NCBI RefSeq assembly: GCF_031624495.1
Contig: NZ_JAMQOP010000001.1
Location: forward strand, 372,001-436,000
Reading direction: 5' to 3'
Source of the DNA: Halogeometricum sp. S1BR25-6
GTDB lineage: Archaea; Halobacteriota; Halobacteria; Halobacteriales; Haloferacaceae
Length of the DNA stretch: 64,000 bases
The translations under genes and the position numbers were made by a program. Below, in pieces: positions 10,282 through 57,138 of this stretch; the first letter of the stretch is position 1, and each line of letters opens with the position of its first letter. The notes under the pieces are model-generated. The model made no database searches. It was not told the DNA's origin and saw only the letters and a list, made by a program, of their open reading frames with translations.

Positions 10282-12342
10282 CTACAACTCCTCGTCGGCC
10301 AGTTCCATCTCGGCGACGACGTCGTACGGACTCAGACCGCCGCGGATGCCGTCGAGGATGCGGAAGGCGTCCCGCGGCGCGAGGAAGTGCCGGCAGACGG
10401 CGCGGCCGAGGGGGGTCGGTTCGAAGCCGTCGATGAACTTCCACTCTAAGAGTTTCCCGACGGCGTGCTTCGTCGGCACATCGCCGAGCATCCGGTCGTT
10501 CAGGCGCTTGGCCTTCTTGCCCGCCACGGTGATGTTCGCCAGCGTCTCCTCGGCGGCGGCGGACTCGTCGTAGACGGTGATGACGTCCTCCATCTCCCCT
10601 TTCAGGAGTTTGAACGCCACCTCGTCTTCGGTCATCTCCATCGAGTTGTGGTAGGAGGCGTCGGGTTCGACGAGGAGGTACACCGTCCCCTTGTCGTGGT
10701 AGTCGGGTCGCCCCGCCCGGCCGAGCATCTGCTCGAACTCCTGAACCGAGAGCCACTCGATACCCATCGCCAGCGTGTCGAACACCACCTGCGAGGCGGG
10801 GAAGTCGACGCCGGCGGCCAGCGCTGCGGTGGTGACAACTGCAGCCAAATCCTGATTGCCGAACTGCCGTTCGACCTGCTTGCGGCGGCGGTAGTCGAGG
10901 CCGGCGTGGTACGGCGCGGCGTCGTACTCCAGCTTTCTCGAAATTTCGTGGCATCGCCGGCGGGAGTTCGTGAACACGATGGTCTGCCCCCGATACCCCT
11001 TCGAGGACTTCGTGTCGAACTCCCGTCTGACGAGTTTGTTGATGATGTCGGGCTTCTCCCGGCCGTCGGCAAACGTGACGTGGCGTTCGATGGGGACGGG
11101 TCGCTCCTCGAACTCGATGAGCGTCGACCGAAGCTTCCGCGCCAGCGTCTCGGGGTTTCCGACCGTCGCGGAGAGATAGACGTACTGCGCACCCCCGTAG
11201 TTGCTCCGTCGCTCCCGTCGCTCCTCGCAGTAGTGCTTCAGTCGGGAGATCATCCCGTCGAGACGGTGGCCGCGTTCGTCCTCTTTGAGCGTGTGCACCT
11301 CGTCGATGACGACGGTGGCGATGTCGCCGAGGTCCTTGCCCGTCCGCAGGGCGTGGTCGATGCCCTCGTAGGTACCGACGATGATGTCGGCGTTCGGGTC
11401 GAATCGGTTGCCGTCGTCGTTGATGCGGGAGGCGCCGACGCGGATGGTGACGTTCAGGTCGTCGCCGTAGCGCTCCTCGAAGTCCTCGTGCTTCTGGTTG
11501 GCGAGAGCGACGAGGGGAACCAAGAAGAGCATCTTCCCCTGTCCCTCCAGCGCGCGGTTCACGCCCGCGAGTTCGCCGACGAGCGTCTTCCCCGTCGCCG
11601 TCGCCGACACGACGAGTTGGTCGCGGCCGTCGAACAGGCCGTTGTCGACGGCGAGCGACTGCACGGGGAGCAGGGTGTCGAAGCGGCCCTCCACCATCGA
11701 CTGCAGTTTCGGGTTCAGGTCGAGCGTCGAGGTGGAGACCAAGTCCACGTCGTCCGTCGTCGCGGAGACGGTGTCGAACTTCGTGAGGTCGGGGTCCAAG
11801 CCCCCTTTCAGGAGGTTCGAGATGCGGCCGAGGTCCTGCGTCTCCAGGAGCAGGGATTCGAGTCGCTCCTGCGCCGCCTGCGTCATCGTGCCCGTCCCGG
11901 AGAAGTCGAGTTCCCGTTCCAGTTCACGCTTCGCGCAGTCCGGACAGATCTGTTCGTTGTCCGCCTGGATGGCCGTCTCCTCGGTGATGGGCGAGTAGCG
12001 CCCGTTCGAGGCGCAGAACCGACAGGTGCGCACGACGAGGGCCTCCAACTGGTAGCCCTCCAGCATCTCGCGAAACTCGTCGCGACGGCGCTTGGTCGTT
12101 TGCTGTGAGATGCGGATTCGCTCGGCTCTCCGGGCCAGTTCGACGAACTGGCTCGGGTCTCGGGGTTCGTCCGACGACCCGCGCTTGACGCGGAACTTCG
12201 CGGGGCGGGGGCCGGCGCTCGTCTCCTTCAGTTCGAGCACGGCGCGGAAGACGCGCTCTCCGTCCCGTTGGACGACGACGAGGAAGTCGTCGTTCGTCTC
12301 GTGGACGAATAGCGTGTCGACGCGGCCGACCTGTTTAGACAC
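10282..12342 (-). CDS. Archaeal Ski2/Hel308-like DEAD/DEAH helicase (COG1202-type)
   Basis: 686 residues. An N-terminal region carries a four-cysteine zinc site (CRFCASNGRYS... then CPDCAKRELE, around residues 107-140). A two-domain SF2 helicase follows: Walker A SATATGKT (about 245), motif Ia VPLVALANQKHEDF, DEVH Walker B, SAT motif III (YLSATVGNPE), and motif VI EQMLGRAGRP. A winged-helix-like C-terminal part ends in an acidic tail. This matches the archaea-specific helicase group COG1202, probably a DNA or RNA helicase; the substrate is unknown. It starts at an ATG. Confidence 0.85.
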   Translation of the reverse strand: MSKQVGRVDTLFVHETNDDFLVVVQRDGERVFRAVLELKETSAGPRPAKFRVKRGSSDEPRDPSQFVELARRAERIRISQQTTKRRRDEFREMLEGYQLEALVVRTCRFCASNGRYSPITEETAIQADNEQICPDCAKRELERELDFSGTGTMTQAAQERLESLLLETQDLGRISNLLKGGLDPDLTKFDTVSATTDDVDLVSTSTLDLNPKLQSMVEGRFDTLLPVQSLAVDNGLFDGRDQLVVSATATGKTLVGELAGVNRALEGQGKMLFLVPLVALANQKHEDFEERYGDDLNVTIRVGASRINDDGNRFDPNADIIVGTYEGIDHALRTGKDLGDIATVVIDEVHTLKEDERGHRLDGMISRLKHYCEERRERRSNYGGAQYVYLSATVGNPETLARKLRSTLIEFEERPVPIERHVTFADGREKPDIINKLVRREFDTKSSKGYRGQTIVFTNSRRRCHEISRKLEYDAAPYHAGLDYRRRKQVERQFGNQDLAAVVTTAALAAGVDFPASQVVFDTLAMGIEWLSVQEFEQMLGRAGRPDYHDKGTVYLLVEPDASYHNSMEMTEDEVAFKLLKGEMEDVITVYDESAAAEETLANITVAGKKAKRLNDRMLGDVPTKHAVGKLLEWKFIDGFEPTPLGRAVCRHFLAPRDAFRILDGIRGGLSPYDVVAEMELADEEL

Positions 12343-12631
12343 GTTCTCGGATAGGAGGACGGGGTATTTCAGCGGTTCGTCTATCGGTCGGCTTCGCCTC
12401 CCGCGTCGAAACAGAAACCACGGGTGTCGTCACGAACGCCTCGAAAGCCCCCGGTCGCTCGGCTCAGGCGACTCGCTGTGCTCCTCGCTCCCTACGGTCG
12501 CTGCGGTGCTTGCTTCGTCGTCCTTCGCCGAGCGACCGGCCTCTTTCAGTCCCGCCCGCGGCGGTTCTCGGTTCGTCCTCGCGCGTCCGAACTCGGCCGC
12601 CGTCGCTCGCCGCGTCCCGTTTTCCGTCGCC
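12343..12631. other. Intergenic region with a 13-bp inverted repeat
   Basis: No gene is visible in this 289-base GC-rich gap. Positions 12451-12463 (ccggtcgctcggc) and 12527-12539 (gccgagcgaccgg) form a perfect 13-bp inverted repeat. Its 63-base loop contains further gactcgctgtgctcctcgct-like sequence. This resembles the palindromic clusters at 8.1 and 63.4 kb, but here no duplicated gene end was found. Confidence 0.55.
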
Positions 12632-13015
12632 CTACTCCTCGTCCAGCACCTGAATCGCGTCGTCGCCGTTCGGGACGGCGCAGAGGAAGCTTCCCTCCTC
12701 GTCGCCCTCGTTTCGGTACCAGTGGACGACGCCCGCCGGGATGAGAAGGGAGTCGCCTTCCGACACCTCGTACTCCTCATCGTCGATGCCGACGGTGTAC
12801 GTCCCCGAGAGGACGTACTGCTCGTGTTCGACCTCGTTCGTGTGCTTCGGGACGGACGCGCCCGCGTCGAGGGCGAACCGTCGAATCGCGAAGTTCGGCG
12901 CGCCGTCGGAGGCGTCGAGGAGGACGCCCTTGGACATCCCGTCGGCGGCCCCGACGGCCTCGTACTCCACGTCTTCGGCGCGCTTGACGACCGGTTTCGG
13001 TTGGGATTCGCTCAT
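12632..13015 (-). CDS. Cupin-domain protein
   Basis: A 127-residue protein with a single cupin barrel. Motif 1 is seen in ASVPKHTNEVEHEQYVLSG (HT...E-x-E-H-x-Q-Y, then a late G) and motif 2 in EGDSLLIPAGVVHWYRNEG (PAGVVHWY). These would bind one metal through two or three His and a Glu. Haloarchaeal small cupins are mostly of unknown substrate, and some are sugar isomerases or dioxygenases. The ATG at 13015 is chosen because upstream sequence in the longer frame is not haloarchaeal in composition. Confidence 0.8.
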   Translation of the reverse strand: MSESQPKPVVKRAEDVEYEAVGAADGMSKGVLLDASDGAPNFAIRRFALDAGASVPKHTNEVEHEQYVLSGTYTVGIDDEEYEVSEGDSLLIPAGVVHWYRNEGDEEGSFLCAVPNGDDAIQVLDEE

Positions 13016-13170
13016 GGGGAAGGGAAAGACGACCGATGGCCTAAACGTTCGCCCCGGAGACGCGCTTCGGTGCCCCCACCGTCCGGTCGGGTCGTCCCAC
13101 CTCACCCATCATCGGCGTCCGATTCCCGCTATCGGATTGGACTTAATACCCGTCGCCGGTTAGGGCCCCC

Positions 13171-14349
13171 ATGCGCGGAATCCGCATCGGACGCGTCTTC
13201 GGCATCCCGATTCAGCTGAATCTCACGTTCTTGCTCGTTCTCCCGCTGTTCGCGTGGCTCATCGGCTCCGACGTGGGCCAACTCGTCGAGGTTCTGAACC
13301 AGTTCGCGCGCGCGCCAATCGACGCCGCACCGCTCACCGAGGGGTCGATGCAGTGGATTCTCGGCACCGCCGCGGCGCTCGGACTGTTCGTCTGCGTTCT
13401 CCTCCACGAGTTCGGCCACTCGCTGGTGGCGATGCGCTACGGCTACGAGATAGAGTCCATCACGCTGTGGCTTCTCGGCGGCGTCGCCAGCTTCGTGGAG
13501 ATGCCGGAGGACTGGAAACAGGAGTTCGTCATCGCCCTCGCGGGACCCCTCGTGAGCGTCGCCGTCGGCGCGCTCTCACTCGTCGGGTTTCTCGCGCTTC
13601 CCGCCTCGCAGGGGCCCGTGAAGTTCGTCCTCGGCTACCTCGCGCTGACGAACGTCATGCTAGCGGCGTTCAACATGCTCCCCGGCTTCCCGATGGACGG
13701 CGGGCGCGTCCTCCGGGCGCTCCTCGCCCGCACCCGCTCGCACGCGCGAGCGACGCAACTCGCCGCCGAGGTGGGCAAGGCGTTCGCGTTCCTCCTCGGC
13801 ATCGTCGGTCTGTTCACCTTCCAACTCCTGCTCGTCGCCCTCGCCTTCTTCATCTACATGGGCGCCTCCTCGGAGGCCCAGCAGACGGTGATGAAGGCCG
13901 CCTTCGAGGACGTGACTGTCCGGGACATCATGACCGACCGGGACCGACTCGACGTCGTCGACGTGCGGACGAGCGTCGCGGAACTGCTCGACCGGATGTT
14001 CCGCGAGCGACACACCGGCTATCCGGTGCTGAAGAACGGTCATCTCGCGGGAATGGTGACGCTCAACGACGCTCGGTCGGTGAACGAGGTCGAACGCGAC
14101 GCCTACCTCGTCGGGGACGTGATGTCGGACGAACTCACCACCATCGGCCCCGACGCGGGCGCGATGGACGCCATCACGGTCATGCAGGCGAACGGCGTCG
14201 GCCGACTCCCCGTCGTCGACGAGAGCGGCGAACTCGTCGGACTCATCTCGCGCTCCGACCTCGTCACCGCGCTCAACATCATCCAGTCGCGCGGGTCGCT
14301 CCCGGCGGTCCGACGCGGCGACCAGACCGAGGTGGTCGACCCCCGGTAA
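13171..14349 (+). CDS. Site-2 protease family (M50) metalloprotease with CBS domains
   Basis: A 392-residue membrane protease. The zinc motif HEFGH (79-83) is in the second membrane segment, preceded by GLFVCVLL. The NxxPGFPMDGGRVLRAL motif (about 163-181) supplies the third zinc ligand, an Asp. A pair of CBS domains follows (from about 250: VRDIMTDRDRLDVVDVRTSV... and VGDVMSDELTTIGPDAGAMDA). The enzyme cuts transmembrane substrates within the membrane; CBS domains usually sense adenine nucleotides. It starts at an ATG, with TATA-like sequence cttaatac about 30 bases upstream. Confidence 0.9.
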   Translation: MRGIRIGRVFGIPIQLNLTFLLVLPLFAWLIGSDVGQLVEVLNQFARAPIDAAPLTEGSMQWILGTAAALGLFVCVLLHEFGHSLVAMRYGYEIESITLWLLGGVASFVEMPEDWKQEFVIALAGPLVSVAVGALSLVGFLALPASQGPVKFVLGYLALTNVMLAAFNMLPGFPMDGGRVLRALLARTRSHARATQLAAEVGKAFAFLLGIVGLFTFQLLLVALAFFIYMGASSEAQQTVMKAAFEDVTVRDIMTDRDRLDVVDVRTSVAELLDRMFRERHTGYPVLKNGHLAGMVTLNDARSVNEVERDAYLVGDVMSDELTTIGPDAGAMDAITVMQANGVGRLPVVDESGELVGLISRSDLVTALNIIQSRGSLPAVRRGDQTEVVDPR

Positions 14350-19113: not shown

Positions 19114-20346
19114 TTATCGTTTATTGAACCATCGTCGCACTCCCGGAGTGTCTGTTTGGACATACCGCAGCGCTGTCTCAACACGGTTAATCCGTAACTG
19201 TGTCATCAGTGCACTAATTCCTGATTCATTTGCGATGTGAGTACCAACCCCCCGTCTTATCATGTACCAGCCATTCTCGCGATTCTCTACATCAATACCT
19301 GCTTCTCGCTGTAGAGGTATCATGACGCTACGTCTGAGCGTACTCTTGTTGTAAGGATTGCCCCTGTTGTTCAGCCAGATTTCTTCTCGCTCTTGCTTTT
19401 CGCCGTTTTCGTCTTCACAGTAGTACTCTGAACGCTCTGCTCGCTCTTCGAGCCAATGATTGAGCACCCGTACAGTATCTCGGGACAGCTCACATCGCCA
19501 GTTGTTTTTCCCGTCTTTGGTGTCCTCTGTATGAGGTATGCTGAGGAAGGCGTCATCGGGGTCCTCAATATTGAGCCACGACATTTTCGACTCCCTGATT
19601 TCGTTCGGTCGGAATCCAACGTCGCAACTGACGTAGACGAGACTTGGTATTAACCACGAATCTGCCCCATCCCAATCTTCATCTCTCAGTTCGTACTTCG
19701 GTTTTCCAAGCCTCTGAGAGAGATGCACTGCCCATTCCTCGGCCTCCTCTGGGGACAGGCTCTCTTCAGATGGAACAGTGTGTATCTTCAACGAGGCTGA
19801 CTTGAGCCTCTTCAGCTCTGTTGGCGTGTTCCAATCTGTGAACTTCGAATTCTTCTTCTGCTCGTTGATTCTCTTGTAAATCTTCTCACTCTTCGGGATA
19901 CTCCACTCTATACTCTGGTATTTGAGAATGAGAGCAACGTTGTTAACTGTCCTTCTATTTGTACTAAGCTGGTTATCATTCTGTAAGAGCTCGAACCAAT
20001 ACTCATTGAGGTGGCTCTTGCTGAACTTGGTGGTAAAGCTGTACTTCCCGTAGAACCACTCACAGAACCGGTCAACACGATTGATTATATCTCGCATTGA
20101 ATTCGGCGAGTAACCTTCTCGGAAGTAAGGTTCTTTACCCCGGTCGTAGGCCCAACACGCAAAGTCAAGCCGCCACTGTTTGAACAGCTCTAACTCTTTG
20201 CGATTGAGATTTTTCCTTATCTCTTCACGGACTGGGGGAAGCCCCAGTTCTTCTTCGGTGTATTCCGGCACCGGAACATCCTCGAACGGATTGTCTTCGT
20301 CAAACGGGTTCTCTTCGTCGAATGGATTGTCTTTGTCGACTGCCAT
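19114..20346 (-). CDS. Tyrosine recombinase (integrase) of the element
   Basis: 410 residues. The C-terminal catalytic domain has the conserved Arg in DVGFRPNEIRESKMSW, the R-x4-H motif in MIRRGVGTHIA (about Arg365 and His370), and the nucleophile in ALRYVQTD (about Tyr395). The N-terminal core-binding helical domain is also present. The first ~25 residues hold three D/E-NPF-D/E repeats, which is odd. Its position next to the left tRNA-His fragment makes it the integrase of this element. It starts at an ATG, with a TATA-rich region upstream (20,380-20,420). Confidence 0.9.
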   Translation of the reverse strand: MAVDKDNPFDEENPFDEDNPFEDVPVPEYTEEELGLPPVREEIRKNLNRKELELFKQWRLDFACWAYDRGKEPYFREGYSPNSMRDIINRVDRFCEWFYGKYSFTTKFSKSHLNEYWFELLQNDNQLSTNRRTVNNVALILKYQSIEWSIPKSEKIYKRINEQKKNSKFTDWNTPTELKRLKSASLKIHTVPSEESLSPEEAEEWAVHLSQRLGKPKYELRDEDWDGADSWLIPSLVYVSCDVGFRPNEIRESKMSWLNIEDPDDAFLSIPHTEDTKDGKNNWRCELSRDTVRVLNHWLEERAERSEYYCEDENGEKQEREEIWLNNRGNPYNKSTLRRSVMIPLQREAGIDVENRENGWYMIRRGVGTHIANESGISALMTQLRINRVETALRYVQTDTPGVRRWFNKR

Positions 20347-33548: not shown

Positions 33549-33977
33549 TCACGAGTCGAGCTGCTGGAACCACTGAGCGAGTTCCTGCTGAAACTGCTCG
33601 AACCAGTGGAGGTCGTTATGGAGAACATCATACACAACATCGTGGTCAATATCTCCATATCGGTGTGCGAGGATATTCCGAAACCCGATGGCCTCTTCCA
33701 TTCTCCCTTGTGTTTCGGGCGAGAGGATGTCCGCATTCCCAAGGGCTTGCATCTCCTGTTTCGCCGTTCCACTCGGAGAAAGGTCCTCTTCCGAGCGGAT
33801 GTGCTGAGCAAGGTCGATGCATGCTTGGACGAGGTTCATCAACGTTCGTTCGACGGCTCGTTGCATGACCACGTCCTTGACGTACTCTTCCTTCGACATC
33901 CCACGCATCTGCTTCAGGTCGTCAGTGTACTGGTTGATATACCGTAGCTTGTCTACAATGACATCGTCATCAACCAT
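33549..33977 (-). CDS. HEPN-domain toxin (HepT-like)
   Basis: 142 residues, all helical. The catalytic RX4HXY motif is intact: Arg100, His105 and Tyr107 in GFRNILAHRYGDID. It starts at an ATG. The upstream MNT gene ends at the base next to it (33,977/33,978), so the two form an operon. In the HepT/MntA family the HEPN protein is an RNase, and its partner inactivates it by adding AMP to the Tyr of this motif. All needed residues are present here. Confidence 0.85.
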   Translation of the reverse strand: MVDDDVIVDKLRYINQYTDDLKQMRGMSKEEYVKDVVMQRAVERTLMNLVQACIDLAQHIRSEEDLSPSGTAKQEMQALGNADILSPETQGRMEEAIGFRNILAHRYGDIDHDVVYDVLHNDLHWFEQFQQELAQWFQQLDS

Positions 33978-34412
33978 CTACGTATCTCCACGAGCTAGTC
34001 GGTCGATGAATTCTCGGCGTTCCCGTTCTCGGTCAGCTGCAGTAGCCTTGTACTCCTGCTTTACTTGTTCTTGGTACGACTTGACTGCCTGTTCATCGCC
34101 AACGAGAACGATACCGTCTTGGAGCGCAGCGTGAGCAACTGGCGTTGGGAGTGAGCTGATATCGCTCACGTCGACGAAACCTTCGGCGTACTCCTGCAGA
34201 TGAGCATCGATACGGTTGCGAAGACGGAACCGTTCGTGGGCGTCCATATCATCGGGAAATTGGAGGGCAATATCCACATCGGATGAATCATGGGCTGTCC
34301 CTCGGGCGTGTGAGCCGAACAGTAAAGCAAAGACAATCCCCGTCTGGACGAGATACTCACTCATCTCCTTGGTATTCACGCCTTCAACGGTTGGCTCGCC
34401 CCCACTCGACAT
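33978..34412 (-). CDS. MNT-type nucleotidyltransferase antitoxin (MntA-like)
   Basis: 144 residues from the ATG at 34412; a tattaat TATA-like box about 27 bases upstream fits this start rather than the longer frame. The motif LLFGSHARGTAHDSSDVDIA gives Gly-Ser followed by ten residues and then Asp-x-Asp, the minimal nucleotidyltransferase signature. It is directly upstream of the HEPN gene, forming an MntA/HepT toxin-antitoxin pair. It probably AMPylates the toxin. Confidence 0.85.
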   Translation of the reverse strand: MSSGGEPTVEGVNTKEMSEYLVQTGIVFALLFGSHARGTAHDSSDVDIALQFPDDMDAHERFRLRNRIDAHLQEYAEGFVDVSDISSLPTPVAHAALQDGIVLVGDEQAVKSYQEQVKQEYKATAADRERERREFIDRLARGDT

Positions 34413-34617
34413 ACAAGGATGTTCGAGAGCCGCCATTAATACATTTGCGTCCACTTCCAGCTAGAATACGTTATTGCGTCTCGGTGGCCCAGTATCGGCT
34501 ATTCCAGTATGGGGCAACCTATCCATCTCGCGCTAACAGTTGTATCTCAATTCTTCTTGAAACATTGAATCAGGACTCGGACCAATTGTTAAAGACGAAT
34601 CAATTTTTCGCTGAAAG

Positions 34618-35157
34618 TTACTCCTGTCTTCCGGACAAGGCGTCGCGTGTCGCAGGTGTTGTTGTGATTTCTTCCTGTATCCGCTCTTCTCCTTTCCACT
34701 TGATATACTGATACCAGATTTCACTAGCGTCTGGTGTCGTCTGATTAAGCTCTCGACGGTCATCACTGAGCCGACTGAACTCCGCTTTCACTTCTTCATC
34801 GCTTAGCTCAGATGAGGTAACCGTAATCATCAGAAAATCTCGGTACTCGTCGAATAGTGAATGGTAGCGGCGAGCAGACCGTCGAAATTCTTCTGCTCTG
34901 TCTTCCAAATGAGTGCCTCTGCGATAACCAGTGACCGCTGCAATGAGTAGTGCCGGGAAGGCAATGTACTGGTTGGGCATGACTTCCCAAAAGCTATTAG
35001 CGAGAATAAGAGCAGCAGCCGCGAACATCACTCCATCTAATACCCGAGATAGGGTTCGGTAGAAATTGGCCGCTGCGAAGTGCTGTTTGTACGTGTAGCA
35101 AATTGAATCGGCCTTGTTTTCTGCTCGGTGGCGTAGCTTACCTCTGAGGTCCTCCAT
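34618..35157 (-). CDS. SLATT-type 2TM effector of a CBASS-like operon
   Basis: 179 residues. Two adjacent membrane segments (about 40-60, GVMFAAAALILANSFWEV, and 65-82, YIAFPALLIAAVTGYR) are followed by a long soluble helical part with AEEFRRSARRYHSLFDEYRD. This is the layout of SLATT proteins, which form membrane pores or depolarise the cell when triggered by cyclic oligonucleotides. It starts at the A of TGA-TG overlap with the CD-NTase stop, so it is translationally coupled. Confidence 0.75.
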   Translation of the reverse strand: MEDLRGKLRHRAENKADSICYTYKQHFAAANFYRTLSRVLDGVMFAAAALILANSFWEVMPNQYIAFPALLIAAVTGYRRGTHLEDRAEEFRRSARRYHSLFDEYRDFLMITVTSSELSDEEVKAEFSRLSDDRRELNQTTPDASEIWYQYIKWKGEERIQEEITTTPATRDALSGRQE

Positions 35158-36095
35158 CAGTCTACGTCCTCCCCGAGTGCCTCCCCATATTTCTCATTCG
35201 CTCCTTCTGTGTCTCCACTCTGTCGGCACTTTTTCGCCTCGCGCATCTTCCTTCGAGCTGTCTTGGCCTTTCTGATAGCTTCCCTTCGGTTCGACTGGTC
35301 CATGCTCGAATCCAATCGGTCGCCGTTAACTGGGTCTCGCGTACCACGGGATACTCGACGAGGGAGTTCTTCGACGAACCCTTCAACTAATTCTTCCGTT
35401 GAGGCATTCTTGTCTGGATGGTTGTGGACGTAGTCATACGCCATCACCTCCATATGATATGAGCTGACAGGGATACTGCGGTTCTCACGGAGTTTTTTCG
35501 CAACTCGCGAAACCTTCTGGAGCCGCCCACCACGCGCATTGTCGACTGCTTCAAACCTCTGTTTGTACCCTCTCGGGTTCGTCCGAACCCATGAACGACC
35601 CTTACTGTAGGTATCCGGAATTTTGTAGCCACCGGCTCCGTCGCTGAACGCGGGTGCGACCTCTACAGTAAAATCACTGAATTGAACGCTTACAACGTTA
35701 CGGTCAATACTGACTTTTGAATTTGGATACTTTTTCTCCAGCACTCGCTTCACCGCGCGTAAGCAGTTCCTCGACCCGTTCTCCCCTTGTTCCCACTCGC
35801 CATGTTTCTCACGGCTCAAAACAACCATTACGTCTGTATCTGAGTCTTCAGAGAGAGGACCAACCATAGTCCCGCGCGTAAAGGACCCGAACTGGTGGCT
35901 CTCTACGATTTCTATTTCCTCATCTAATATTTGTTCAAGACGTTGTCGTCGTTCGTCGATTGTCTTGCCCTGCCGGTTTGTTGGTCCTACTGCATCAGCG
36001 TAGTCATCCAAAGAAGTCTGCTCAGAGGAATCACCGGTAGACTGGTCTCTTGACTGATTTCCCGGATGGTTCGGAGGAGCGATTCCGGACCCCAT
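35157..36095 (-). CDS. CD-NTase (cGAS/DncV-like) of a CBASS-like operon
   Basis: 312 residues. The nucleotidyltransferase core has HQFGSFTRGTMVGPL (GSFTRGT at about 70-76), DSDTDVMVVL (Asp86 and Asp88) and a third acidic position in FTVEVAPAF (Glu145). A helical C-terminal part follows (RLQKVSRVAKKLRENRS...). This is the OAS/CD-NTase type, which makes cyclic oligonucleotides on phage infection. Its start overlaps the stop of the upstream gene (TGATG), and its stop overlaps the SLATT start. The Pro-rich acidic N-terminus is extra. Confidence 0.8.
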   Translation of the reverse strand: MGSGIAPPNHPGNQSRDQSTGDSSEQTSLDDYADAVGPTNRQGKTIDERRQRLEQILDEEIEIVESHQFGSFTRGTMVGPLSEDSDTDVMVVLSREKHGEWEQGENGSRNCLRAVKRVLEKKYPNSKVSIDRNVVSVQFSDFTVEVAPAFSDGAGGYKIPDTYSKGRSWVRTNPRGYKQRFEAVDNARGGRLQKVSRVAKKLRENRSIPVSSYHMEVMAYDYVHNHPDKNASTEELVEGFVEELPRRVSRGTRDPVNGDRLDSSMDQSNRREAIRKAKTARRKMREAKKCRQSGDTEGANEKYGEALGEDVD

Positions 36096-36877
36096 CACAC
36101 CCACCCCCGTACATGCTCAAACGCATGGAGGGGCTGCTGTCCAATACACAAAGTTGAATCGACCTGTTGACTCCAAAGGTCGTAGTTCCTTGCTGCCTCC
36201 TGAACTGAAACAACACGTGGGTTTGAGTTGCGCAGCCAGCGCTGACCGGCGAGGCCGGTCACACACGGAGGGAAATTCGATACTAGGTTCTCTGACTGGA
36301 AACCAATCAACATCATATCTTCGGGTTCGTATTCAATCGAAATCCGCTGGATACGCTCTAGGAGCTCCTTGTAACGGTATCCGTAGGTGAAATACTGTAC
36401 GCAGTAGTATGCGACTCTCGTACAGCTGAGGTCGTCAAACGCGTCATAGCATAGCCCTCGTTCATACTCCGTCTCACCTTTGACTAACGGGACTACCTCA
36501 ACACCAGCATCTCGAAACTTGGGGATAATATCCAAGAGGTCAGCGACGTACGCTCGTACCGTCTCAATGCGTTGTACACGCGCATCAAGGTCGTAAACTG
36601 GGCGGTCACAAGGAACAATTGCGTCAGCGCCAAGACGCTTCGCTAACGCTAATTCTCGTTCAGGGAACCACTCCTCCAACTGTTCATCGGGAATCGTCGA
36701 GGATAGAATGACCTTCGCTTTCAGTTCGCTTAGGTCGATACCATTCTGGTCTAAGCGACGAGCATTAGGATAGCTAATCATCACAGCATCAATTGTTTGT
36801 GAGGCATCACTGAGTTCGAGATGCTCAGATTTCGATTCTATCCGAGGAATTGCTCCTCTCAGATACTTACCTCCCAT
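36095..36877 (-). CDS. TIM-barrel protein, possibly TGT/DpdA-like
   Basis: 260 residues, first gene of the CBASS-like operon. It has alternating strand-helix pattern: TIDAVMISYPNARRL, KRLGADAIVPCDRPVYD, FRDAGVEVVPLVKGETEYER, and SCTRVAYYCVQYFTYGYRYK. The order of a DxP-containing strand, then a V-P-L-V-K-G strand, then a Cys-rich strand recalls the tRNA-guanine transglycosylase/DpdA barrel. TGT-like proteins are ancillary genes of type IV CBASS. This identification is by pattern only and needs a structure comparison. Confidence 0.5.
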   Translation of the reverse strand: MGGKYLRGAIPRIESKSEHLELSDASQTIDAVMISYPNARRLDQNGIDLSELKAKVILSSTIPDEQLEEWFPERELALAKRLGADAIVPCDRPVYDLDARVQRIETVRAYVADLLDIIPKFRDAGVEVVPLVKGETEYERGLCYDAFDDLSCTRVAYYCVQYFTYGYRYKELLERIQRISIEYEPEDMMLIGFQSENLVSNFPPCVTGLAGQRWLRNSNPRVVSVQEAARNYDLWSQQVDSTLCIGQQPLHAFEHVRGWV

Positions 36878-41471: not shown

Positions 41472-41858
41472 TTACTTCCGAGCAACCGCGTGTGTTGCGC
41501 TCATCGGCTGGGGTTCTTCAACGAACATTTGTCCGATGTCTAGATAGATACCATCACCGCTCCGCTCGATTCGAACGCGGAACTCCAAGTCGTCAACGAA
41601 TCGACCATCAAGGATGAACTGCACAGCATCCATCGACCCGAGCGACCGACTCTTACGGAGTGTCTGCCGAAGGTCACCAAGAATCGCCTCTCGCTCGTCC
41701 TCTGCGGAGTCGTAAAGCAGGTCGGTGAGTCCAGTAACCGAGACCGGTGTCTCCACGTCTTCGTTGGCGGCGACCCGCCTAAAGAATTCCAGCGCGGCTA
41801 GTTCGCTCTCGGTTTCAGCAACCGACTCCGTCACGAGGTTGTATCCCGGTTGAAGCAT
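41472..41858 (-). CDS. Small protein of the BREX-like operon
   Basis: 128 residues, last gene of the four-gene operon, starting 2 bases after the methyltransferase stop. It has a helical first half (ESELAALEFFRRVAANED, LLYDSAEDEREAILGDLRQT) and a beta second half (FVDDLEFRVRIERSGDGIYL). No family is recognised. By position it should be a subunit or regulator of the system, comparable in place to the small accessory proteins of BREX and DUF1156/DUF499 loci. Confidence 0.6.
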   Translation of the reverse strand: MLQPGYNLVTESVAETESELAALEFFRRVAANEDVETPVSVTGLTDLLYDSAEDEREAILGDLRQTLRKSRSLGSMDAVQFILDGRFVDDLEFRVRIERSGDGIYLDIGQMFVEEPQPMSATHAVARK

Positions 41859-41860
41859 GG

Positions 41861-44392
41861 TCAGAACTGGCTGAGATTCATTTCCATCACGTGTTCGTAG
41901 CGCTCGTCGCCGGTAACCTCGGACATGAACTCGGCGAGTTCTTGTCGGTCATCGCTCTTCCAGTCCTTGAGGTACTCGGTTGTGTTCTGGTCGGTCTTAT
42001 ACAGATGATAGAGATACTGAACCTTATCGATGTCCAGTAGAGCCTCTCCATCGCTACCATTCTTGTTGAGCTTCCGTTCGATGAAGCGAACCCGTTCGTC
42101 CGCGGGGACGGGTTCCTTCTTGTCGCGCGGCCCCTTCACGAGTTTCTCGTCTTCGAGGTCGCTGACGTTCAGGTTCTTACCGAGCAGAGTCTTGTTCAGG
42201 TCGTCGAAAGACTCGCTCCCTCGTTGGCAGAACGCGGCGTACGCCTGCGTGAGTGAGTCGATACTCACTGGAAGATTCACCGACCCTTCGAGAACCTGCT
42301 CGATGACCGAGTCGACAGTATCGAGTGCTTCGTCGATGCCGACCTCCTCGCCGTCGGAGTACACGTTCGGGTAGTGCTTCGAGTAGTAGTACAGACACTT
42401 GCCACGAAGGATGACACCAAGGTCCGCCTGTGCGAGGTCATCGTGTCGCTTCCGTTCTTCAGTAATGATATTCTGAAGCTCAAAAAAGAGGTTCTGTCTA
42501 AGTTCTTTGAGAGTAGTCTCTTCAGATGAGCGCTCCTTGTTTGTGAATATTAAGATATCATATTCAGAATTATCAAGATTAGTTATGTGCATATTATTGT
42601 CTCGCTCTGATTGTACGGGATATGCACCAGTGATAGTGAATCCACTTTCTATGATAGATTCCAAAATCACCGACCAAGCCTCATTTTCGTTGTGATGATA
42701 TGTGAAGACCATTTCACCATCCTGCTTGAGGACGCGGTAACACTCGCTAAACACATTCGTCATCGACTTAATGAAGAAGTCCTCGCCCTTCCCTGCACTC
42801 CTATTAGAGACGATTTCACGCGCTTTCGGGACAAGTTCTGGTTGAAACTCTTCAAAGTCTTGTTTGAGCCCCTCGCGGAGCCATACATAAAAGAAATCTG
42901 AAAGCTCCGAGTATTGAACGTTATCGTAATATGGAGGGTCAGTGATTACATAATCAACACTCTCGTCTTCCTCTTTTAGACGTTCTGAAGTTTTGTTATA
43001 TAGATTAATAAGTCTATCTTCAGAAACGGACTCACCTAGAATCTCGTATTTATTCACAGAGCTATTTTCCTTGACTTTTTCGAAGGGATTCTCTGCATAC
43101 TCCTTAGCATCAGCAACGATTCGCACGAATTTTTTAAAAGAGCCATATGCCTCAAACGTAGTTAGCGGATTACATTCAACAGGTTGAACTTTGGTGACGT
43201 AGGCATGGCGCTCAAACGTACTAGTTGCCCTTCCTCCGATATACTCCCACCTACACAATTTCGAATTATACTCGACTAATCGGGAAACAGCCGTTACAAG
43301 GAATTCACGCGTCGGTTGGTGGTCGATACTTTTTATTTCTTCGAGCAGTTTTCCGTGTACCAATAAATGCCGAGGTGTGAAAAGGTCGGAGAACTGGTCA
43401 TAGTTATAATTCAGGAGAGTGTTTGTTTTGTCTCCCTCTGGAACCGGTTGTTCTGGTATGGGAAGTTGGGTTTTCTGTTGGTTGAGGGCTTCCGTGGCTT
43501 CTTCAATTCGTTTCCGGTCATCTGAGTCAGGTTCTTTGAAGGCTGTCTTCCCATTACGTTTCTTATATTGGATAGCAAATGCCTCAAACTTCGGCATTTC
43601 GTCAATCCGATTCAGGGTCTCTGTGACATCGTGTTTGTGACCATTAGAGCAGGTGTACTTGCCTCGTCCGTATGGCCCATCGGTTGGGTCAAAGGTATGA
43701 CTACAGTTCGGACAAGTCTCTTCATCTCTTATATCATGGTTGAGTGCAAAGATACGGTCGTCGCAGTCTTGGTTTGGGCAGTAGACTATCGCTGGCATAG
43801 TCTTTTTGTTTTTTGCGAGCTTGTATCTACCGAATAGTTGAACTTCTTCGTCACATGTCAGGCAAGGAATTTTCTGTGTTTGGAGTATGTATTTGCTCTC
43901 ACATATGGCTCCTGTATCTGGGTCTTCGGTCTCATACAGATGACCGATGTCGTCTCGTACTGCTTGGAGAACTTCTTCGGCCTTGTTTTTCACACGAGAC
44001 GTATCAACCTCATCAATGGATTTCTTTGAGGTCCACCAAGCAACTGGATTTAGCTCGTAACCAATGGTTTGAGCACCTAGCCGATTTAGTTCAACAAGTG
44101 TGGTACCTCCTCCCGCAAATGGGTCTAGTATTACCTTATCTTCAAATTCTGAGCCTTGATTTTGAAGATACCTTCCACTATAGTTCCCGCCCGGAGACTG
44201 GGTGAGGATGTCATCTTTGTCGGTATTCTCATCAGTAAGGCAGGCAAGGCCCAGAATTCGAAAAGTGCAGCCCGGGCGTCGGGCCCACCATTTATGAATT
44301 GAATATATCGGACGGTAGACATCACGGCGATATGTTTCTTTCTCGGCCAAATTGTCCATCAGGTTCAAAGGAAGTTTTTCCCAAGTTTCCAT
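41861..44392 (-). CDS. DUF1156/COG1743-type DNA methyltransferase with zinc ribbons
   Basis: 843 residues. It begins with the family's START-like segment RPIYSIHKWWARRPGCTFRI. The SAM motif ILDPFAGGGTTLVELNRLG is at 88-106 and the catalytic motif DPPYYDNVQYSEL at 485-497, giving a circularly ordered amino-methyltransferase. Between them lie three cysteine pairs (CLTC at 177-180, CPNQDC at 205-210, CPNC at 227-230) that form zinc ribbons. Methylation is probably N6-adenine or N4-cytosine. The gene sits between the PglZ-like gene and the small last gene with 2-base gaps. Confidence 0.85.
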   Translation of the reverse strand: METWEKLPLNLMDNLAEKETYRRDVYRPIYSIHKWWARRPGCTFRILGLACLTDENTDKDDILTQSPGGNYSGRYLQNQGSEFEDKVILDPFAGGGTTLVELNRLGAQTIGYELNPVAWWTSKKSIDEVDTSRVKNKAEEVLQAVRDDIGHLYETEDPDTGAICESKYILQTQKIPCLTCDEEVQLFGRYKLAKNKKTMPAIVYCPNQDCDDRIFALNHDIRDEETCPNCSHTFDPTDGPYGRGKYTCSNGHKHDVTETLNRIDEMPKFEAFAIQYKKRNGKTAFKEPDSDDRKRIEEATEALNQQKTQLPIPEQPVPEGDKTNTLLNYNYDQFSDLFTPRHLLVHGKLLEEIKSIDHQPTREFLVTAVSRLVEYNSKLCRWEYIGGRATSTFERHAYVTKVQPVECNPLTTFEAYGSFKKFVRIVADAKEYAENPFEKVKENSSVNKYEILGESVSEDRLINLYNKTSERLKEEDESVDYVITDPPYYDNVQYSELSDFFYVWLREGLKQDFEEFQPELVPKAREIVSNRSAGKGEDFFIKSMTNVFSECYRVLKQDGEMVFTYHHNENEAWSVILESIIESGFTITGAYPVQSERDNNMHITNLDNSEYDILIFTNKERSSEETTLKELRQNLFFELQNIITEERKRHDDLAQADLGVILRGKCLYYYSKHYPNVYSDGEEVGIDEALDTVDSVIEQVLEGSVNLPVSIDSLTQAYAAFCQRGSESFDDLNKTLLGKNLNVSDLEDEKLVKGPRDKKEPVPADERVRFIERKLNKNGSDGEALLDIDKVQYLYHLYKTDQNTTEYLKDWKSDDRQELAEFMSEVTGDERYEHVMEMNLSQF

Positions 44393-44394
44393 CT

Positions 44395-45333
44395 TTAGTT
44401 ACCTCCGGTTGCGTTCGTCTCAACGTATAATAGGGGGGTCATACATTCAGGAAGACTAAACCCGCCGTGCATGATTTTCTTAGTATCACCGGGTTTCGTC
44501 CACTTATAATGTCCACGTACAACGTAGTGGTCACTCACTCGTTCAATGATGTTCGCCTGCTCAAGAATCTGGAATGCTTGGCTGTTCGAGACCTCGGCTA
44601 AGCGGCCACTGAACTTGCCCTTTAGCGACTTTTTCAGCTCGTCTGAGAGGGTGTATGGAGAGGCTCCGAGATGATTGACGTATCCGTGGTCACTCGTCAC
44701 GAGGAACTTGGTGTGGACACTCTCATGGACGATGTCCTCCAGAAGACCCTTCGCATCTTCATAGATGTTCTCAACCTCCTCGGTTGAGTAGTTACCTTTG
44801 AGTGCCGCTTCAAGTCGATTGTCGGGGTGCCGCGTCCAGACGTACTCCGGCGACGTACCGGGTAGTTGTGGTACGTCAAGGTCACCGATATAGCGGTAGT
44901 CGTCACGATTGACCGTGGACGGACTCTGCGCGTTGAACCACTCTCGGCAGATGAACTGCGTCTCACTTGGGAGTCGTTCGATTGGTGCCCATCCTAATGA
45001 CACGTTCCAGTCGTGTTCGTCTGCGAGTTCCCGTTCGAGGCGGAATCCCTCGCGGAGACTGAGTGCATCCATGATGACACCACAGCCATCTTCGAGCGAC
45101 GTAATGGGGTGATTCCCCATTTGGTCGGCAAGTTCGTCGTAGAGCGGTGGATACAGCTTGGCGAGTTCACGTTCGAGCAGCCGAGTTCGGTACTCCGCCC
45201 CGCCAAGTTCCCGCTCGCCGAGTGCATTCTCAGTACCCCAAATTCGACGGAGGCATTCGAAGACCCCGTCAAAGATGTTCTCCTCGGTCAGGAGGGCATC
45301 GAACTCTGACTGTCCGTAGAGTCCGTCAGTCAC
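44395..45333 (-). CDS. Compact PglZ-like alkaline-phosphatase-superfamily protein
   Basis: 312 residues, much shorter than usual PglZ proteins (about 700-900). The metal-binding skeleton is present in order: GVIMDALSLREGFRLERELA (Asp89 and Ser92), KFLVTSDHGYVNHLG (Asp215, His216) and IMHGGFSLPECMTPLLYVET (His289, Gly-Gly). These correspond to the D-A-L, S-D-H-G and H-G-G-x-S motifs of PglZ. It starts inside the ATPase gene (8-base overlap) and ends 2 bases before the methyltransferase. It is probably the regulatory or hydrolase part of the complex. Confidence 0.75.
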   Translation of the reverse strand: MTDGLYGQSEFDALLTEENIFDGVFECLRRIWGTENALGERELGGAEYRTRLLERELAKLYPPLYDELADQMGNHPITSLEDGCGVIMDALSLREGFRLERELADEHDWNVSLGWAPIERLPSETQFICREWFNAQSPSTVNRDDYRYIGDLDVPQLPGTSPEYVWTRHPDNRLEAALKGNYSTEEVENIYEDAKGLLEDIVHESVHTKFLVTSDHGYVNHLGASPYTLSDELKKSLKGKFSGRLAEVSNSQAFQILEQANIIERVSDHYVVRGHYKWTKPGDTKKIMHGGFSLPECMTPLLYVETNATGGN

Positions 45334-48133
45334 CTTTGTTCACCTTCAACTTAACTGAGAGCGAAGCGTGCTCGGGGACGTTCAAGTCCATCATGAGCCC
45401 TAAGAAGGATTGTCCGTTCATTGACTCGTCAAGTACGAATGTGAACGTCTGTTTAAGCGAAACCTGCTGGTCGAGGACACTCATGCTGATACCGTAGTCC
45501 GCGAGTTCATCTGCAGTCAACGACCCATCGACCGTGATTTCTGCCTCGTGGATTTCCCACTCTAACCCAAGTTCGCGCTCCAACGTGTCGATGATATCCG
45601 GCTTGTTGTCAGCGTCCAGCGTCCCCATAATTGGGTGGGGACGAATTGTCGGCCCACTCTCTTCCTCGATACCGAACGCATCAAGCATATCCTCCGTGTT
45701 CAGGCCGTCAACCGAGACTTTCCCTTCACGAACGTCGCCCGCACTGAACTCGAAGCCACACTCGCTACACTCGGAGCCTTCTAATTCAGCGCCACACTGC
45801 GGGCATTCGAACGCGGCCGAAGCTTCGTCCTTCTCTTTGGTTTCTGCATCGGACTTGGTTGTCGCACCCGTCGACGTAGTGCCTCCGTTGCTGGCCTTTG
45901 AGGATTTAGAGGGTGCCCCGGTAGTGTCGATAGTGATAGTCGACTCGTCATCGTTGTCTTCCTCCTCTTCGATGTACTGCTCGTGCAGGAGAGTCGTATC
46001 GCTCCCGAGGCTCCCGACGCGCTTCTCGAAGTAGTTGCCTACTTGGATGACCCCATCACGACAGAGCGAGTCGATGGCGTCTTCTAGTTCGTCTTCACTG
46101 GTCAGCGTGGTAAACTTCGAATTGCGGTAGAAGTCGTTCTTGAGGTGTTCATATTGAATTCCTGTGGCTCCTGCCTCCTTGACGACGTTCTTGACCTCCG
46201 ACCGAAGCTGACTGCTGTCTGGCTTGACGACCTTGACCGTCGCCGCGTAGAAATCGATGTTGCCGCTGGTTGGGAGGTCTTGTGGGAACAAGCCGCGCTC
46301 TGTCGATGTATAGACTGTCCCGAACTTGTCCCGGACTCGGTCACGGAGGCTTTGGTAGTTCTGCTCGTCAATCTCGTCGAAGCCCTCTGGGAGAACATCT
46401 TCCTCACGGGTGAGCTGTTCGCCCGCGATAACTTTCCGCGCGAGTTCGATGATGCCGGTGTTTGTGTCGACGCTCGACCGCTTCTCGGGGGTAACGAGGG
46501 CGAGTGTGTTGTTGAACTCCCGGTTCTGCCCCGTAGTGATTTCCTCGAAGTCTTCGTCGTAGTTTTGCTTCGCGCCGAGCGAGACGACAATCTTCAGTGT
46601 CTTGTTGTCCGGGATGTCCTGTTCGGTGTTGACTGGGTCGAGAATGTAGACATTATTGTGGTCGTCGAAGAGGTCTTCTCGAACGAGAGACTCCACACGG
46701 TGAATCGCGTCGTGTTTGTGGATGTCTTGGGCCTTCTTCTCGATTCGTGCGGCAGGATTCTCGTCTACGTCAAACGCGTACTCGCCGTTGATACGATGAA
46801 CGTGCCATGCGTGGCCGTAGACCTCCTCAGTGAATATCTGGATGATTCGGTGAGCGTTGACCCCCTTTCGCATCGTGCCCATCAGCATCTGACGCTTGTT
46901 CGCGCCTTCCTCGCCCGCGCGTGCGAGACTGTGGAGCAGAACTATATTGAGTAGTTCCTCGTGGAATTCGTCGAACGTTCCGTCGGGCTTCTGGAGTCGG
47001 TGGTAGTCGTTGACGTACTTCCCGACTAACTCACTGTCGATGTATTGGAAGCGGTCGGTGTAAGCGAATACGTCCACATCCCCGGAGAGGATGAAATCCA
47101 CCTCGGAGAAGTTGTCTCGAAGAATTTCGGTCAGGAAGCGGAGGAGCCCACGTGCGTCCGAACTGATTCGCTGTTCAGAGTACTTCTCCATGAGGAGATT
47201 CAGCAAGAGCGGATGGAATGGATAGTAGCGCTCAATACGCTCCTGCATATCGTGGTAGTCGTCAAGTTGTATCTGGTCGTTCTGACGGTACACGTCAGTG
47301 TACTCCTTCGCCAGAGCAGAGACCCCGTCCGCGTCGTCAACAGAACCAATGAGACGGTGGAGGATGAAGTCGATTTTCTCGTCGCGCCGGGACGAGAGGT
47401 CGTGTGTGAACGGATTCGTTCGCTGAGTAATCGCCTGTATCTCTTCGTCCTTGTAGAGGAGTGAGACGAAGACGCTCAGAGGAGTATCGTCACGCCCAGC
47501 CGCTTCGAGCAGGTTCTGGAGGAACGCGAGGTTATCCTCTTCGTATTCGGTACGGCTGGCCATCCCGAACCAACGCTCAAGCTCGTCAATGAGGACGAGC
47601 GTTGGTTTATCTTCGAGCGTGTTCCTTATCTCGTGAACTTGCGGGAGGTCGGCACCATCGGCCCATTCGTCGATACCAAGATAATCGCCCACTGCTTCTG
47701 ACAGTCGGTCGTAGTTCTTGTCCAGATTGAACATCTGGAGCGCCGCTGTTCGCGTCTCACTCGGAAGCTCCACGTCAATTCCGCGTTGGTCAAGCCACTG
47801 CTGACCAATGTCTGGTGAGTTAAAGAGGTGATAGACGACGAGTTCGATGTGACTCTTCCCACTCCCGTACTCACCACCGACGATTTGACTTCCTTCAGCA
47901 AAATCTACATTCCCGCTGAGCTTACGAGCGGTATTCTTGATAATCGCAGTAAGAGTTTTTGTTGGGTAAGTGATGTCAAGGATTCGTTCTGCGTCTTGCT
48001 CTGGTGAGTCGCGTTCGTCGTAGAGGTTGTAGAGCGAAACCTCGTCAAGTAGACCAGCCGGGTCTATTCTCCCATCAGGCGCTTGAATCTCTTCACTAGG
48101 AGTGACATAGTCGGCGATGACGCCCTCAGTCAT
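45326..48133 (-). CDS. DUF499/COG1483-type AAA+ ATPase, BREX PglY/BrxC-like
   Basis: 935 residues from the ATG at 48133, which has ggggg just upstream; the longer frame adds 16 unlikely residues. Walker A GGEYGSGKSH (86-95) and Walker B TLVLIDELERWFG (178-190) are clear. Later parts include YYPFHPLLLNLLMEKYSEQR and a DUF499-type segment. A C-terminal zinc ribbon FECPQCGAELEGSECSECGF lies near 805-825. It is the first gene of the operon. Such ATPases act with methyltransferase and PglZ in phage-exclusion systems. Confidence 0.8.
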   Translation of the reverse strand: MTEGVIADYVTPSEEIQAPDGRIDPAGLLDEVSLYNLYDERDSPEQDAERILDITYPTKTLTAIIKNTARKLSGNVDFAEGSQIVGGEYGSGKSHIELVVYHLFNSPDIGQQWLDQRGIDVELPSETRTAALQMFNLDKNYDRLSEAVGDYLGIDEWADGADLPQVHEIRNTLEDKPTLVLIDELERWFGMASRTEYEEDNLAFLQNLLEAAGRDDTPLSVFVSLLYKDEEIQAITQRTNPFTHDLSSRRDEKIDFILHRLIGSVDDADGVSALAKEYTDVYRQNDQIQLDDYHDMQERIERYYPFHPLLLNLLMEKYSEQRISSDARGLLRFLTEILRDNFSEVDFILSGDVDVFAYTDRFQYIDSELVGKYVNDYHRLQKPDGTFDEFHEELLNIVLLHSLARAGEEGANKRQMLMGTMRKGVNAHRIIQIFTEEVYGHAWHVHRINGEYAFDVDENPAARIEKKAQDIHKHDAIHRVESLVREDLFDDHNNVYILDPVNTEQDIPDNKTLKIVVSLGAKQNYDEDFEEITTGQNREFNNTLALVTPEKRSSVDTNTGIIELARKVIAGEQLTREEDVLPEGFDEIDEQNYQSLRDRVRDKFGTVYTSTERGLFPQDLPTSGNIDFYAATVKVVKPDSSQLRSEVKNVVKEAGATGIQYEHLKNDFYRNSKFTTLTSEDELEDAIDSLCRDGVIQVGNYFEKRVGSLGSDTTLLHEQYIEEEEDNDDESTITIDTTGAPSKSSKASNGGTTSTGATTKSDAETKEKDEASAAFECPQCGAELEGSECSECGFEFSAGDVREGKVSVDGLNTEDMLDAFGIEEESGPTIRPHPIMGTLDADNKPDIIDTLERELGLEWEIHEAEITVDGSLTADELADYGISMSVLDQQVSLKQTFTFVLDESMNGQSFLGLMMDLNVPEHASLSVKLKVNKGD

Positions 48134-48312
48134 CGAATTCCCCCATGGAGTAGATTCCGCAAGTTGAACGCATTTCCTCACCCTTTCAGAGGTAGTGACA
48201 TATATGTTATGAAGAAACCACTTCGAAGAAAATCGAAGCTCTGTCTCTCCGTCTTTCCAGAGGCTAAGAATTCACGAATCCGGTTTTCACGAGTCGCAGC
48301 CTATGCACTAAC

Positions 48313-57062: not shown

Positions 57063-57108
57063 AGGTCCGGGTGCGAGAATCGAACCCGCGTCTCAGCCTC
57101 CACAAGGC
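57063..57108. repeat. Right attachment site
   Basis: 46 bases identical to 18,668-18,713. It forms the 3' half of the intact tRNA-His gene, so integration restored the tRNA with sequence brought by the element. Confidence 0.9.
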
Positions 57109-57138
57109 TGAAGGATAGTCCACTACCCTAACCCGGAC
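57065..57138 (-). tRNA. tRNA-His(GTG)
   Basis: The minus strand folds as a tRNA: the acceptor gtccgggt pairs with acccggac (including the extra G-1:C73 pair typical of tRNA-His), the anticodon stem is cagcc/ggctg with loop ttgtgga, giving anticodon GTG, and the T-arm contains ggttcgattct. CCA is not encoded. It is the integration site of the element. Confidence 0.95.

Follow-up and report, generated by a model that had tools for sequence, protein, structure and literature searches.

The closest described relatives of the locus analyzed here are the three DUF499-centred 'BR' systems defined by Rakesh & Krishnan (NAR, January 2026; PMC12839542). In the main text of that paper, Type-3 BR comprises a DUF499 ATPase, an N6-methyltransferase, a nuclease-free BrxHII-like helicase and a standalone, active PglZ; it is given for 569 taxa, 134 of them archaeal, with an inactive STAND protein (iSTAND) in 82% of taxa. 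Hma/Type-1 BR and Type-2 BR share the DUF499 ATPase and DUF1156 methyltransferase with the locus described below, but have helicase-nuclease fusions and no PglZ, form separate clades and, in Type 2, carry DUF3780. BREX type 3 likewise combines a PglZ with a methyltransferase of the PglXI/BrxXI type, but it has BrxC in place of DUF499, a long PglZ, and BrxA, BrxF and BrxHII. How BREX-type systems act against viruses is unsettled, partly on account of their size (six or more genes) and of their helicases and backup nucleases; a naturally occurring version with four genes would allow the roles of PglZ and helicase to be tested directly.

The window (the whole stretch of 64,000 nucleotides from Halogeometricum sp. 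S1BR25-6 that was analyzed) carries four tightly packed genes on its minus strand, at 41472-48133, in the order A-Z-M-S; A and Z overlap by 8 bases, and gaps of 2 bases each separate Z from M and M from S. Coordinates and spacing reproduce those of the initial annotation, and its family assignments (DUF499 ATPase, PglZ-like protein, DUF1156 methyltransferase) agree with profile searches, at strengths that differ between the proteins. Homologues support 48133 as the start of A, in preference to the longer ORF beginning at 48181. In all four genes, wherever it is computable, dN/dS lies well below 1. The genes and their main features are:

48134-48211, minus strand: upstream leader/promoter stretch moving with the cassette (homology to Haladaptatus salinisoli L061 starts 78 nt upstream of A)
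45326-48133, minus strand: A, DUF499 AAA+/STAND-type ATPase, 935 aa (Pfam DUF499, HmaC, motifs, tree)
47852-47875, minus strand: Walker A of A, GEYGSGKS
47573-47602, minus strand: Walker B region of A, TLVLIDELER
45755-45805, minus strand: zinc ribbon of A
44395-45333, minus strand: Z, standalone PglZ of the NPP/alkaline-phosphatase fold, 312 aa (profiles, Foldseek, invariant residues)
45046-45081, minus strand: Z motif GVIMDALSLREG
44959-44973, minus strand: Z motif LPSET
44821-44832, minus strand: Z motif RHPD
44680-44694, minus strand: Z motif SDHGY
44446-44469, minus strand: Z motif HGGFSLPE
41861-44392, minus strand: M, DUF1156/COG1743 N6-adenine DNA methyltransferase, 843 aa (Pfam, NCBIfam, HmaB and PglXI models)
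42793-44370, minus strand: segment of M subject to exchange, its recognition domain (approximately residues 8-533), which lies between motifs I and IV and on either side of them (nucleotide comparison with L061)
44102-44125, minus strand: motif I of M, DPFAGGGT, residue 90
43637-43864, minus strand: Cys-rich zinc-finger stretch of M, between motifs I and IV
42929-42940, minus strand: motif IV of M, DPPY, residue 485
41472-41858, minus strand: S, small conserved protein, 128 aa, probably a degenerate P-loop protein, iSTAND/BrxF-like (present at 31/31 loci; weak model folds)

A matches Pfam DUF499 above cut-off (E=5.5e-9) and the HmaC model (E=8e-14), but BrxC (DUF6079), the ATPase of canonical BREX, at only E=0.024. 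Its Walker A motif is kept across the cassettes, a truncated copy of A in L058 excepted, and nearly all of them also show the Walker B pattern; by analogy with BrxC and with DUF499 relatives, A may act as a scaffold or in surveillance. M matches the DNA methylase family N6_N4_Mtase of Pfam (E=1.4e-15), DUF1156_antiphage of NCBIfam (E=4.5e-41; Pfam DUF1156 falls just below cut-off), HmaB (E=7e-47) and PglXI (E=8.8e-35). This last match removes a contrast drawn in the initial annotation, which had set the locus apart from known BREX by the PglX-type methyltransferase of the latter: BREX type 3 pairs its PglZ with just such a PglXI/BrxXI protein. Although M and A match HmaB and HmaC, the cassette has no counterpart of the HmaA helicase(-nuclease) that characterizes Hma/Type-1 BR.

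Z by itself remains under the cut-off of Pfam PglZ (E=0.05), which is matched by 25 of its 31 relatives; the profile of the Z family matches the solved BREX PglZ structures 9nv3 (E=1.8e-7) and 9zn5, as well as PorX, and so bears out the earlier view that the 312-residue protein is PglZ-related, placing it among homologues of proven PglZ nucleases. In a Foldseek search against all solved structures, the top matches of its AF2 model, itself of low confidence (pLDDT 59), are PorX (probability 1.00) and the BREX PglZ 9zn5 (0.94). The PglZ motifs had been described as present in miniature, and every metal/nucleophile residue is in fact kept: D89, T125, D171, D215, H216 and H289 are invariant in 38/38 Z sequences, those of bacterial Type-3 BR included. 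By alignment, T125 and H289 correspond to T272 and H500 of PorX and to T538 and H741 of Escherichia fergusonii PglZ (H289 was aligned to PorX directly, T125 placed via the alignment with 9nv3). T538 and H741 are tested nuclease residues that contribute to defence; the T538A exchange ablates plasmid cleavage and lowers defence by about 3 logs, leaving methylation unaffected (PMC12205998). Given the invariance of these residues and the T538A phenotype, Z is likely to be the effector nuclease in vivo. Its compactness is real but not peculiar to this locus, a standalone PglZ next to DUF499 and DUF1156 proteins being the arrangement that the main text of PMC12839542 gives for Type-3 BR. The phage and viral collections searched contain no PglZ relative.

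S had been listed as a protein of unknown kind, and searches of Pfam, NCBIfam and PADLOC yield nothing above noise, excluding membership in a family known to these collections; in particular, it has no DUF3780 match. Its AF2 model (pLDDT 87) has weak fold matches throughout (best E=0.6), the top 50 being mostly AAA+/P-loop proteins, and its gene occupies the position of the iSTAND gene in Type-3 BR, right after the methyltransferase; S may be an inactive STAND protein of the BrxB/BrxF kind. An equation with the small 165-aa protein of bacterial loci is not supported, the profile comparison not being significant and the likeness extending to position and motif order only. Homologues of S (E about 1e-6 to 1e-15) also occur in three haloarchaeal loci that have no PglZ within 9 kb (L131, L133, L134); S therefore appears to follow the ATPase/methyltransferase core and not PglZ.

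Searched with Z, 391 Halobacteria genomes yield 31 carriers, spread over 23 of 86 genera, and in 20-kb neighbourhoods, surveyed as the initial annotation had proposed, gene order A-Z-M-S and orientation are identical at all PglZ-positive loci (31/31, counting the S of L044, which the gene caller missed and which reads through by eye); two of them, L052 and L058, have insertions between cassette genes. Such recurrence places the layout far from chance. The loci fall into subfamily I, with 17 members including that of the window, and subfamily II, with 14, whose Z proteins are 24-30% identical to those of subfamily I and, in the alignment, 24-28% identical to the Z of the window. Elsewhere in Halobacteriota, two genomes (G413, G526) have the complete cassette, and a third (G495) has A-Z-M up to the end of its contig. 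No flanking gene is conserved across the 20-kb neighbourhoods, and the edges of the cassette are defined by nucleotide homology, independently of annotation: in 12 of 15 close pairs homology stops no more than 3 nt from the stop codon of S, and in 14 of 15 its onset lies between 353 nt upstream of A and 27 nt inside it. It is this abrupt end at S that identifies the four genes as a unit. With the nearest relative of the window's cassette, on a plasmid of Haladaptatus salinisoli (L061), the match opens 78 nt before A and closes on the final base of S. Cassettes are frequently found on plasmids or islands; one such plasmid is pHLAC01 of Halorubrum lacusprofundi ACAM34_DSMZ, which bears A-Z-M-S as well as CRISPR and has been lost from ACAM34_UNSW (PMC10544981). 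A PADLOC scan of 100 flanking and 100 control proteins did not discriminate defence genes in the flanks from controls, as hits were tallied by family rather than by protein and the controls also score.

Between these ends, the match to L061 is interrupted. Similarity is confined to 44370-48211 (82%) and 41472-42793 (74%), on both flanks of a segment of M across which there is no nucleotide similarity at all. In methyltransferases of this type, the target-recognition insert lies in this part of the protein, which takes in motifs I and IV, the sequence between them and their surroundings. The same mosaic is seen in loci from three different haloarchaeal families, L036 (Haloarcula japonica DSM 6131), L037 (Halorussus marinus LYG-36) and L038 (genome G174): compared to L036, the A, Z and S proteins of L037 and L038 are 97-98%, 94-99% and 92-98% identical, but their M proteins 88% or 68%. 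Identity is lost in this same part of M only, and the C-terminal third remains 95-100% identical. The pair L040/L041 repeats the pattern; in pairs from subfamily II it is weak or absent. This is the pattern expected if DNA specificity were exchanged on an otherwise constant machine, and the naturally swapped recognition domains offer ready pairs for finding the part of the methyltransferase that reads DNA.

What the cassette lacks, in comparison to Type-3 BR, is the helicase. The initial annotation saw none, and indeed no SNF2 helicase (PF00176) lies beside the cassette in any of 34 carriers; where the two share a contig, the shortest distance is about 18 kb (in G093). The genome G413 has no SNF2 match. 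The nuclease-free SNF2 (BrxHII-like) helicase that forms part of a Type-3 BR locus is thus missing from a unit whose edge is at the stop codon of S. In four bacterial plasmid loci the order is A-Z-M, a small gene, and SNF2 (Aminobacter pSR6, L095; Citrobacter pRHBSTW-00302_4, L096, with SIR2 and an ATP-binding gene inserted; Candidatus Tenderia, L129; Ensifer pT173c, L130). With these the cassette shares the DUF499 ATPase, the standalone PglZ with complete site, the DUF1156 methyltransferase, the small gene following it, and the gene order; it differs in the absence of the helicase, in a methyltransferase of 843 rather than about 1070 aa, and in a small protein of 128 rather than 165-173 aa, whose homology to the bacterial one has no statistical support. 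In the tree of A, the cassettes fall into a single clade (support 100/99) with bacterial Type-3 BR and a third group, of haloarchaeal loci, apart from Type-1 and Type-2 BR, and the tree of M, built by a quick method only, gives the same grouping with support 100; several long branches leave the order inside the clade unsure. The cassette thus has a DUF499 ATPase of the Type-3 clade, a DUF1156 methyltransferase with a TRD insert and zinc finger(s), and a complete standalone PglZ; descending from this lineage but having no helicase, it is a variant of Type-3 BR rather than a plain member. Type-2 BR was rejected as an assignment, the cassette having neither DUF3780, whose absence had been noted earlier, nor an HKD-nuclease SNF2 helicase; genuine Type-2 BR is seen at L135 and L139.

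The third haloarchaeal group consists of loci whose A and M are related to those of the cassette. Three of them, on plasmids (Halosegnis, L131; Haloprofundus, L132; DL31, L134), have an SNF2 helicase, next to which a conserved gene (280-388 aa) is found; the fourth (Halosimplex, L133) has A-M-S, and none of the four has a PglZ within 9 kb. On the strength of these four loci, haloarchaea seem to employ PglZ and helicase as alternative partners, and the existence of two sister designs, one with PglZ but no helicase and the other with a helicase but no PglZ, suggests alternative effector routes. The initial annotation's proposal of a minimal or distinct phage-exclusion system accordingly holds in part: the system is BREX-related and not a canonical subtype, but its parent kind was catalogued in January 2026 as Type-3 BR, as the main text of PMC12839542 shows. 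A term search of that main text, supplements aside, finds no mention of a helicase-free form of Type-3 BR. The novelty that remains lies in the helicase-free architecture, the exact boundaries and the swapped recognition half of M, the latter two being additions to that text.

With a probability of about 0.72, the cassette is a self-contained, horizontally mobile, modification-based virus-exclusion system, built as a helicase-free variant of Type-3 BR. In the mechanism we envisage, M would methylate adenine in a specific motif of host DNA and so mark self, as its family and motifs suggest; A, an ATPase with DNA-binding domains, would join M and S in a surveillance or scaffold complex that assembles on unmodified DNA, in which S would serve as accessory sensor or adaptor; and Z, a bare PglZ catalytic domain, would nick or cut the invader's DNA in a metal-dependent manner, or else hydrolyse nucleotides. 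PglZ is best read as the only recognisable effector of a minimal modification-based system. On balance it is probable that the four genes make up an exclusion system that is complete and works without a helicase, smaller than any BREX-related machine so far, with the bare PglZ as sole effector and its specificity switched by swapping the recognition half of M, and that, within a single clade of such systems, haloarchaea combine a shared ATPase-methyltransferase core with either PglZ or a helicase (plus its partner gene).

The absence of the helicase is open to other explanations. The cassette could be an ordinary Type-3 BR that relies on a helicase encoded elsewhere in its genome and acting in trans: bacterial Type-3 BR plasmids encode the SNF2 helicase immediately after the small gene, some carriers, the window's own genome among them (G000:C5:70471-72192), encode a 600-aa SNF2 helicase of the sister-locus type, and this helicase (584 aa in sister haloarchaeal loci; in 73/391 genomes) is mildly enriched in carriers (11/31, against 62/360 non-carriers; Fisher p=0.03). 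Yet 20 of the 31 haloarchaeal carriers have no such sister-system helicase, G413 has no SNF2 match whatever, the helicase of most helicase-bearing carriers lies near a second DUF499 gene of the genome's own, sister loci with that helicase beside DUF499 have no PglZ, and the cassette travels as four genes, helicase not included. Help in trans thus appears improbable; because of the mild enrichment it is disfavoured only. The loss of the helicase could also mean that activity was lost or altered in archaea, with bacterial relatives keeping theirs. That a canonical BREX has decayed here, losing BrxA, BrxB and BrxL, is barely credible: PglZ and a BrxC-like ATPase are common to both, but A is a DUF499 protein, purifying selection acts on all four genes, Z is only 312 aa, with none of the N-terminal domains of the long canonical PglZ, and haloarchaea have separate PglZ proteins of the BREX type, about 640-910 aa long, some of them in carrier genomes. 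ATPase type, PglZ length and selection were the grounds for rejecting canonical and decayed BREX alike. BrxA and BrxL are indeed missing from the four-gene unit, as had been claimed; the accompanying claim for BrxB may fail, since S is possibly a BrxB/BrxF-like inactive STAND component.

Doubt can also attach to the substrate of Z and to the purpose of the whole. Both PorX and BREX PglZ are able to cleave oligonucleotides, whether cyclic or linear, PglZ has NPP-fold ancestry, and a CBASS-type cyclase is encoded in the same island, all of which would suit a Z that acts mainly on nucleotides or cyclic oligonucleotides, in signalling or depletion, rather than on DNA; we consider this unlikely, as BREX PglZ also nicks and linearises dsDNA (PMC12205998) and the cyclase does not recur beside the cassette across loci. 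Rather less likely still is an epigenetic regulator or an addiction module that stabilises plasmids and islands. The common location of the cassette on such elements and the capacity of a methyltransferase plus nuclease for post-segregational killing speak for it, and swapping of the recognition half of M is compatible with any modification system, non-defensive ones included. Nevertheless, exchange of that half on a constant backbone, together with the patchy distribution, is more in keeping with conflict with invaders than with a regulatory mark that stays fixed, and phage restriction is described in the literature for the relatives BREX and Hma/Type-1 BR.

In the window, the cassette lies inside a low-GC island of ~40 kb (GC about 0.47-0.57, against 0.65-0.72 outside), bordered by an integrase-like gene and tRNA-His; no Rfam RNA was found in the region. 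The same island also contains a CBASS-like operon.

The cassette (DUF499 ATPase, standalone PglZ, DUF1156 methyltransferase and a 128-residue protein) lies in a low-GC island of about 40 kb (window positions 17000-57000), which is bordered on one side by an integrase-like gene and on the other by a tRNA gene; the island is probably an integrated element. The features in and around it are, in window coordinates:

19114-20346, integrase-like gene, at one border of the island
34618-36877, (-), CBASS-like operon, its cyclase matching PADLOC PDLC00805
40080-40862, (+), serine recombinase, adjoining the cassette
57064-57137, tRNA-His, at the other border

The serine recombinase may contribute to the mobility of the cassette; related recombinases are found close to three other haloarchaeal cassettes (L035, L042, L055), and the cassette on a Halobacterium salinarum plasmid (L097) has a recombinase gene ahead of it. 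The CBASS-like operon combines an oligonucleotide cyclase (PDLC00805, E=2e-152) with a 2TM effector and a TGT-type protein. Two neighboring genes at 33549-34454 (-) resemble, by eye only, a HEPN/MNT toxin-antitoxin pair.

Ten cassettes of subfamily II (L047-L051, L054-L056, L059, L060) have in common a short motif, roughly TGGRAAANYATCAAGTRG, about 35-50 nt upstream of the ATPase gene, which is perhaps a promoter or operator.

Another contig of the same genome carries a 597-residue SNF2 helicase and a second DUF499 gene (G000:C5:70471-72192 and C5:90265), a pair resembling the haloarchaeal DUF499 loci that have a helicase and lack PglZ. In two of these loci, a conserved gene adjoins the SNF2 helicase:

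L132, 5916-7079, and L134, 5236-6402, gene for a protein of 387-388 residues

The two copies, 60% identical, gave no convincing match to Pfam; a more distant copy occurs in a third such locus, L131.

In the Type-3 BREX-related locus of a Citrobacter plasmid (L096), a SIR2-family gene and a gene for an ATP-binding protein are inserted at 10886-13763, with PglZ on one side and the methyltransferase on the other; this insertion could possibly act as a backup effector.
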